DNA from: Acholeplasmataceae bacterium
GTDB taxonomy: Bacteria; Bacillota_I; Bacilli_A; Acholeplasmatales; Acholeplasmataceae
Assembly (NCBI GenBank): GCA_024709245.1
Contig: JANJXB010000012.1
Span: 1 to 42,714, forward strand
DNA: 42,714 nucleotides
Direction: 5' to 3'
Shown here one piece after another: positions 41,621 through 42,714 of this stretch. The translations under genes were made by a program, and so were the position numbers. Under the pieces are notes generated by a model. It was not told the origin of the DNA and searched no databases. It saw nothing but the letters and a program-made list of their open reading frames with translations. Each line of letters starts with the position of its first letter. Within the stretch, counting starts at the first letter, position 1.

Positions 41621-41712
41621 GGAAGAGTATCGAAGTGGTTATAACGAGCTGCCCTCGAAATGCAGTTACCCTCATAAGGGGTACGTGGGTTCGAATCCCA
41701 TCTCTTCCGCCA
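41621..41712 (+). tRNA. tRNA-Ser(CGA)
   Basis: 92 bases including encoded CCA. Acceptor GGAAGAG pairs with CTCTTCC (41702-41708), discriminator G. D-stem TCG/CGA. Anticodon loop CTCGAAA gives anticodon CGA at 41656-41658 (reads UCG). The anticodon stem has four pairs plus a C-T mismatch at the base next to the loop (41653/41661). A long variable arm TACCC...GGGTA is class II, serine type. T-stem GTGGG/CCCAT with loop TTCGAAT. Confidence 0.93.
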
Positions 41713-41754: not shown

Positions 41755-41882
41755 GTGCTTAAATATGGCCAAAATAACCAAAATAAGCTTATTATTAGCC
41801 AATTTTCACGTTTTTTAGCACAGTCATGTCAATTTAGGGAAGCTGAAACTAGTATGCTAATCATAACTTCAACTCAACTTTT

Positions 41883-41990
41883 TACACGATTTGAGCAAGG
41901 GGTGCTAAAAATTCTGCACGATATGAAGAGGGGGTGCTAAAAATATTACACGATTTGGGTGGGGGTGCTAAAATTCTACACGATTTGAAA
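41883..41990. repeat. Four tandem 30-32-bp repeats (IS-end-like)
   Basis: The core CACGATTTG or variant occurs at 41885, 41917, 41949 and 41979 (spacing 32, 32, 30). Each of the last three is preceded by GGGGTGCTAAAA and a short AT stretch. Units are joined without spacers and differ by a few bases. Arrays of short repeats at an end are seen in some insertion sequences, such as the IS21 family; no transposase is in the window, so the element type is inference. Confidence 0.8.
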
Positions 41991-42084: not shown

Positions 42085-42171
42085 GGTGACATATGATGAC
42101 AATTATGATGACAACTTATATAACTACATTGGTGACAAAAATGGTGACATATGGTGACAATAATGATGACA
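42085..42171. repeat. Seven GRTGACA boxes
   Basis: GGTGACA or GATGACA begins at 42085, 42095, 42107, 42131, 42143, 42153 and 42165; steps are 10, 12, 24, 12, 10 and 12. The first three and last three form the same spaced triplet repeated 58 bases apart. The final box overlaps the -35 of the next gene. Looks like an array of protein-binding sites. Confidence 0.85.
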
Positions 42172-42194
42172 AACTTGTAAAATATTGATATAAT
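42166..42194 (+). promoter_or_regulatory. Promoter of AlbA_2 gene
   Basis: ATGACA (42166-42171), 17 bases, TATAAT (42189-42194) with TGA extended -10 (42186-42188). The -35 is part of the seventh GRTGACA box. Confidence 0.75.
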
Positions 42195-42216
42195 TTAATT
42201 AATTAAGGTGTTAATG

Positions 42217-42714
42217 ATGAAGTTGATAGAAAATAATGCCAATGAATTTAAACTTTTTTAAATGACAAGTTCGAAAAAGTCGTTGTATCTTTTCTTAACT
42301 CAAAAGATGGAGGTAACATTTATCTTGGGGTTGATGATTTAGGACAACCTGTAGGTTTAAAAGAAGTAGATAAGACACAATTAGAAGTCAAAGATAGAAT
42401 CAAGAACAACATAAGTCCTTCCACATTAGGCTTATTTGATGTTGTGATTGAAGAAATGAACAATCAACAGATAATTCATGTAATTATTGCAAGTGGAACT
42501 GATAATCCATATTACATAAAACGAAAAGGCATGTCGCCAGAAGGGTGCTTCATAAGAATAGGCAGTTCAGTTGAATCCATGAATAATGAGATGATTATTG
42601 ACCTTTTTTCTAGAAGAACCAAGAACTCGCTTAAATCAATTATTTCTCCCCAACAAAGTTTGACTTTTTCGCAACTAAAAATTTTCTATGAAGAGGTTGG
42701 GTATGAAATTGGAG
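42217..42714 (+). pseudogene. AlbA_2 (Schlafen-type) domain protein, frame broken, 3' end outside window
   Basis: From ATG 42217 (AAGGTG 6 bases before) the frame reads MKLIENNANEFKLF and stops at TAA 42259-42261. The -1 frame continues at once as LNDKFEKVVVSFLNSKDGG, then NIYLGVDDLGQPVGL, and stays open to the window end. Joined, it is a clear AlbA_2 N-terminal domain: E near the start, then GGNIYLGVDD, the domain that binds nucleic acid or acts as nuclease in Schlafen-like proteins; GSSVESM appears later. The break is inside six Ts (42254-42259); one more T would restore the frame. Downstream frame has no start codon of its own. It may be decayed, phase-variable, frameshifted in translation, or misread. 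Confidence 0.8.

Follow-up and report, generated by a model that had tools for sequence, protein, structure and literature searches.

Phased box arrays at bacterial Schlafen-type genes as candidate autoregulatory operators, sited at the promoter or within the coding sequence

Seven phased copies of the heptamer GRTGACA precede an SLFN_AlbA_2 gene in a stretch of 42,714 nucleotides from an Acholeplasmataceae bacterium (hereafter the window). We propose that these boxes quite probably form the operator of the adjacent gene, to be bound by its product, a bacterial Schlafen-type protein that would thereby repress itself, and that this is a habit of the whole protein family. Arrays of this kind are best read as product-bound autoregulatory operators, which in about a third of the genes would lie inside the coding sequence. 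This reading draws, at the level of sequence, on the arrays themselves, on their two locations, on the joint change of the motif at both, on the link between motif and winged helix, and on the private occurrence of motifs in the genomes checked.

In the proposed mechanism, the C-terminal winged helix of the gene product would bind each box, and adjacent protein copies about one helical turn apart would occupy the whole array, masking the -35 element, so that the gene represses itself. Each family gene would have its own box motif, fitted to its own winged helix, with the array sited either at the promoter or in the DNA that encodes the disordered linker immediately preceding the winged helix; some genes may carry single or inverted box copies around the -10 element as well. 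Arrays within genes may act by looping or as a roadblock. One-turn steps point to monomers bound side by side, while self-repression is suggested by boxes that overlie the -35 element or by a pair of inverted boxes around the -10 element. Cooperative binding, which the initial annotation had also raised, is suggested by the layout of the array.

The window array was largely as first described (Table 1). All seven boxes are present on the forward strand at successive steps of 10, 12, 24, 12, 10 and 12 bases, the triplet with steps of 10 and 12 occurs twice, and the seventh box supplies the -35 hexamer of a promoter. The initial annotation had placed all sites on about the same face of the DNA; this holds within each cluster of boxes and fails between clusters. 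At 10.5 bp per turn, boxes 1-3 lie at 0, 343 and 34 degrees and boxes 4-7 at 137, 189, 171 and 223 degrees, about half a turn off because of the 24-bp step. The phased-chain score of the array (k=8, z = 9.1) was reached by none of 1000 Markov shuffles, and the chance of seven boxes within 94 bp is about 3e-15 (Poisson). Tight GRTGACA pairs (3-base gap) occur in this genome only at the array; when gaps of 3-5 bases are allowed there is one extra pair, on a different contig, which we judged to be due to chance.

Table 1. Features of the window array, its promoter and the adjacent gene
Feature	Position	Strand	Basis or remark
Box 1, GGTGACA	42085..42091	+	sequence match
Box 2, GATGACA	42095..42101	+	sequence match
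Box 3, GATGACA	42107..42113	+	sequence match
Box 4, GGTGACA	42131..42137	+	sequence match; spacing shared with G417 and G009
Box 5, GGTGACA	42143..42149	+	sequence match
Box 6, GGTGACA	42153..42159	+	sequence match
Box 7, GATGACA	42165..42171	+	its ATGACA (42166-42171) is the -35 hexamer
-10, TATAAT	42189..42194	+	17 bp past the -35; invariant in promoter alignment
SLFN_AlbA_2 gene	42216..42714	+	PF04326, E=5e-17; frameshift near codon 15; 3' end lost at contig end

The reading frame of the window gene is broken at a T run (about 42254-42259) that is one base shorter than in its homologues from genomes G417 and G009, and the contig end cuts the gene before the HATPase_c_4 domain and the winged helix, into which the homologues run on in that order. 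Frameshift and truncation could reflect assembly error or real loss. In the orthologues, PF04326 is matched at E=6.6e-17 to 1.4e-20 (P0001-P0003) and E=1.1e-15 (P0004), and HATPase_c_4 and a C-terminal winged helix are present in all four as well as in the AF2 model. The model has pLDDT <50 only in the linker (358-369), and the winged helix is modelled confidently. In a structure comparison with an orthologue, 3LMM was the closest solved structure, followed by SLFN12/SLFN11. The product is a bacterial Schlafen-type protein. Bacterial Schlafen proteins with the same domain order (SLFN_AlbA_2, a minimal histidine-kinase-like ATPase and wHTH; COG2865) have been found beside BREX systems and, as RNases, connected with anti-phage defence, in a report that makes no mention of direct or tandem repeats, an operator, autoregulation or binding sites (PMC12839542).

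Just 5' of the array lie a tRNA-Ser(CGA) gene (41621-41712) and, after it, three to four copies of a repeat of about 31 nucleotides (41873-41990, GGGGGTGCTAAAA..CTACACGATTTG). Sites beside tRNA genes are typical for genomic islands. The matched form of the repeat has no further copy in its own genome, and the repeat may be what is left of an IS end.

Phased arrays are present again upstream of AlbA_2 genes in related genomes, where the initial annotation had proposed to search. In a pattern search of 150 relatives, G009, G137 and G091 proved to have the same arrays directly 5' of AlbA_2 genes, and G032 to have an inverted set of boxes. Across the class, RRTGACA triples occur in 11 of 395 genomes, the control pattern in two. 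Seven of the 11 have the triple at a family gene (inside it in G269, downstream of it in G461, at a short broken gene in G455), which is not the random genome-wide scatter that had been named as an argument against a link to the gene. At two further loci (L317, G414:C63; L316, G238:C7), with no family gene, triples adjoin genes for XRE-type regulators.

Orthologues in other genera and families retain the boxes: the array is conserved at the orthologous promoters of G009, G091 and G417, with three boxes at the more distant G137. The spacing in G417, which belongs to another family, is identical to that of the window from box 3 on (24-12-10-12), and that in G009 from box 4 on (12-10-12). The last box serves as the -35 element in each of the five aligned promoters, and TATAAT is invariant at a distance of 16-17 bp. 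These orthologous genes encode SLFN_AlbA_2, HATPase_c_4 and a winged helix. The protein fragment from the G417 locus (L315, contig C104) is 95% identical to that of the window (146 of 153 residues). Found in a different family together with an unchanged spacing of the boxes, it makes recent horizontal transfer probable. Among homologues in a sample of named genomes GRTGACA itself is mostly absent; we dropped this scarcity as a refutation once other motifs appeared at the same place. The TAACTGA repeats of Beggiatoaceae were rejected as a further case, as they form a separate, genome-wide repeat set.

We surveyed 256 distinct family genes, picked almost entirely by protein similarity, from 80 named-genome loci, order-wide PF04326 matches, part of the class-wide PF13749 matches and a few viral matches; viral contigs hold few relatives, and four loci (L004, L010, L023, L026) are included although first found by pattern. 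Arrays were scored as chained 8-mers with at most one mismatch, at steps of 9-13 or 20-25, against Markov shuffles, with z>3 counted as an array. In this unevenly sampled set, where related genes are counted though not independent, the 160 bp before the start codon carry an array in 36 of 252 family genes against 3 of 300 control genes (P=2e-10), and the DNA for the linker, immediately ahead of that for the winged helix, carries one in 74 of 235 cases against 4 of 705 other windows of the same genes (P=8e-44). Two of the three control matches (L227, L288) are intergenic regions shared with an AlbA_2 family gene that has an array. These are the only two peaks in the positional profile, any other window round the genes reaching at most about 3%, with a minor peak just past the stop codon (3.1%).

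The motifs are diverse, among them ATTTCCCGAG and CCTAGATTTC in six copies each, TTTGAAGT, ATGCGAAGT, TGTAGAATAA, GAACAAGTTA and, in an array with 21-bp steps, AATGCCACCAA. Neither kind of array is present at the threshold used in 135 of 231 genes, which means either that the rule has exceptions or that the test lacks sensitivity. Arrays were found in 1 of 22 genes without a winged helix and 35 of 225 with one, a difference that is not significant (P=0.14). No gene has both a promoter and a linker array at z>3.5 (P=2e-5). We rejected strict exclusivity of the two sites as partly a threshold artefact, since a number of genes combine an array at one site with some copies at the second.

Repeats in a disordered linker might arise at the level of the peptide, as a flexible linker grown by 12-bp slippage and unrelated to the promoter repeats. 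The period is 12 bp in most linker arrays, a disordered linker tolerates repeats and tandem duplication is common. However, seven linker arrays (L065, L071, L066, L202, L203, L084, L217) have a period of 10-11 bp and pass through all reading frames, as in Capnocytophaga sputigena (L065, CAAGTACCATG), and in three of these (L203, L084, L217) the box is conserved while the spacer varies. One DNA motif can be read in different frames (SDHA and MQDT; DQIN and PNKS), near-identical linker DNA occurs in different frames in L086 and L064 and likewise in L277 and L263, and the encoded peptides are unrelated (VTEQ, GGQI, NEGL, MQDT, PKNE, SDHA, NGDE, LKKD). In some genes the own promoter has the same motif, often on the opposite strand. 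We consider an origin at the peptide level very unlikely. The all-frame periods, the frame-shifted motifs and the joint change of promoter and linker indicate that linker arrays act as DNA, and the sequences place the constraint on the DNA rather than on the peptide.

The promoter and linker motifs of one and the same gene are alike in about a dozen genes (L004, L023, L095, L132, both L156 genes, L166, L197, L200, L263, L266, L268, L277). Words of at least 15 nucleotides common to a gene's own promoter and linker occur in 7 of 228 genes, against none of 1365 mismatched pairs, a significant excess; a PWM scan for each array gene's motif at its second site was not significant overall. Promoter and linker also change together, with GACCCAATAA in L266 and L268, GACCAAATAA in L277 and L166 and CGCCAAATAA in L263, and in each of these groups an inverted box pair around the -10 element matches the variant of the in-gene array. 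In L023, L095, L132 and both L156 genes, the promoter and linker copies lie on opposite strands.

The opposite strands bear on the possibility that the arrays are RNA elements in leader or coding mRNA, bound by the Schlafen-type domain. The SLFN_AlbA_2 family includes tRNases and RNA-binding members, and the transcript would include the linker arrays and some of the upstream ones. Many upstream arrays, however, lie 5' of the -10 element and so are not transcribed, copies on opposite strands fit recognition of double-stranded DNA and not of RNA, and the motif follows the winged helix. We consider RNA recognition very unlikely.

Across different genes, the similarity between promoter-array motifs and linker-array motifs increases with that of the winged helices (Mantel test on representatives, r=0.106, P=2e-4). 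Cores of the form [TC]GACA accompany recognition helices with T-[IV]-x-R in 8 of 23 cases against 2 of 87 (P=4e-5), for a class that was defined post hoc. Three arrays were searched genome-wide, two in G032 (one contig) and one (GCGAAGT) in G093, and each occurs only at its own gene.

The initial annotation had left a choice between control by the product itself and sites that titrate a host factor. The motifs differ between genes, follow the winged helix of the gene concerned and, in the genomes checked, occur nowhere else; this pattern favours the product itself and speaks against a common host factor. More broadly, the arrays might be sites of another host regulator, which would control the gene or be titrated by it. 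Such a regulator would accord with the few RRTGACA triples away from family genes, some of them near the XRE-type regulator genes of L316 and L317, and binding by the product is something that we infer. It would, however, be expected to have other sites, whereas the motif is specific to each gene and changes together at promoter and linker; this alternative is unlikely. We lean towards a private operator code, in which each winged helix would co-evolve with its own phased array and the linker would be a by-product of the DNA element, even when the repeat is read in all three frames.

Arrays just 3' of the stop codon were observed at the family genes L157, L333, L255, L275, L288 and L227, and in the last four the motif is the same as that upstream. 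Some arrays, lying 3' of the -10 element or past the stop codon, are unsuited to simple promoter occlusion. Alternatively, the arrays could be centromere-like or end-like sites of the TubR/tubC type, serving partition, mobility or the marking of self and non-self, with autoregulation secondary. An array combined with a winged helix recalls tubC, the same array flanks both sides of the gene in the four loci with matching motifs, the 95% identical protein fragment with the same box spacing in G417 suggests mobility, and a tRNA-Ser gene precedes the window array. Nevertheless, many upstream arrays are positioned for promoter control, and the motif of each gene is private. We regard a primary role of this kind as improbable, and retain autoregulation by the product as the preferred reading.

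We found no description of such arrays in the open-access PMC literature. In TubR-tubC and similar systems, a DNA-binding protein sits on repeats upstream of its own gene and also represses the operon (PMC7762940). Multiple repeats 5' of the gene are a feature of the present arrays too, where the protein is presumed to bind them; here, however, the array is often inside the gene, every gene has a private motif, and no partner NTPase is known. The AbiEi antitoxin, of defence type, binds promoter repeats cooperatively and thereby represses its operon (PMC7319586). Its repeats are inverted and a separate toxin gene is present, whereas our family has mostly direct repeats and a single polypeptide.

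Repressor sites within genes that pair with a promoter site include lac O2 and the internal operator of galE. Here, in contrast, a phased array encodes the linker of the regulator itself, and such arrays recur within a protein family. Plasmid iterons, to which a winged-helix protein able to autoregulate binds, are likewise phased direct repeats, with steps of about 22; the present arrays have steps mostly of 10-12, and no replication gene or origin was found with them.

The proposed operators would provide a testable control rule for likely anti-phage RNases, a family both widespread and little studied, and the binding sites of many members would be predictable from sequence alone. The many naturally evolved pairs of winged helix and site may serve as material for learning rules of DNA recognition. 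The linker arrays would also be a clear case in which a DNA regulatory element, and not protein function, shapes a protein segment. Fourteen SLFN_AlbA_2 matches occur in a single genome, G093, and the motifs differ among those examined.
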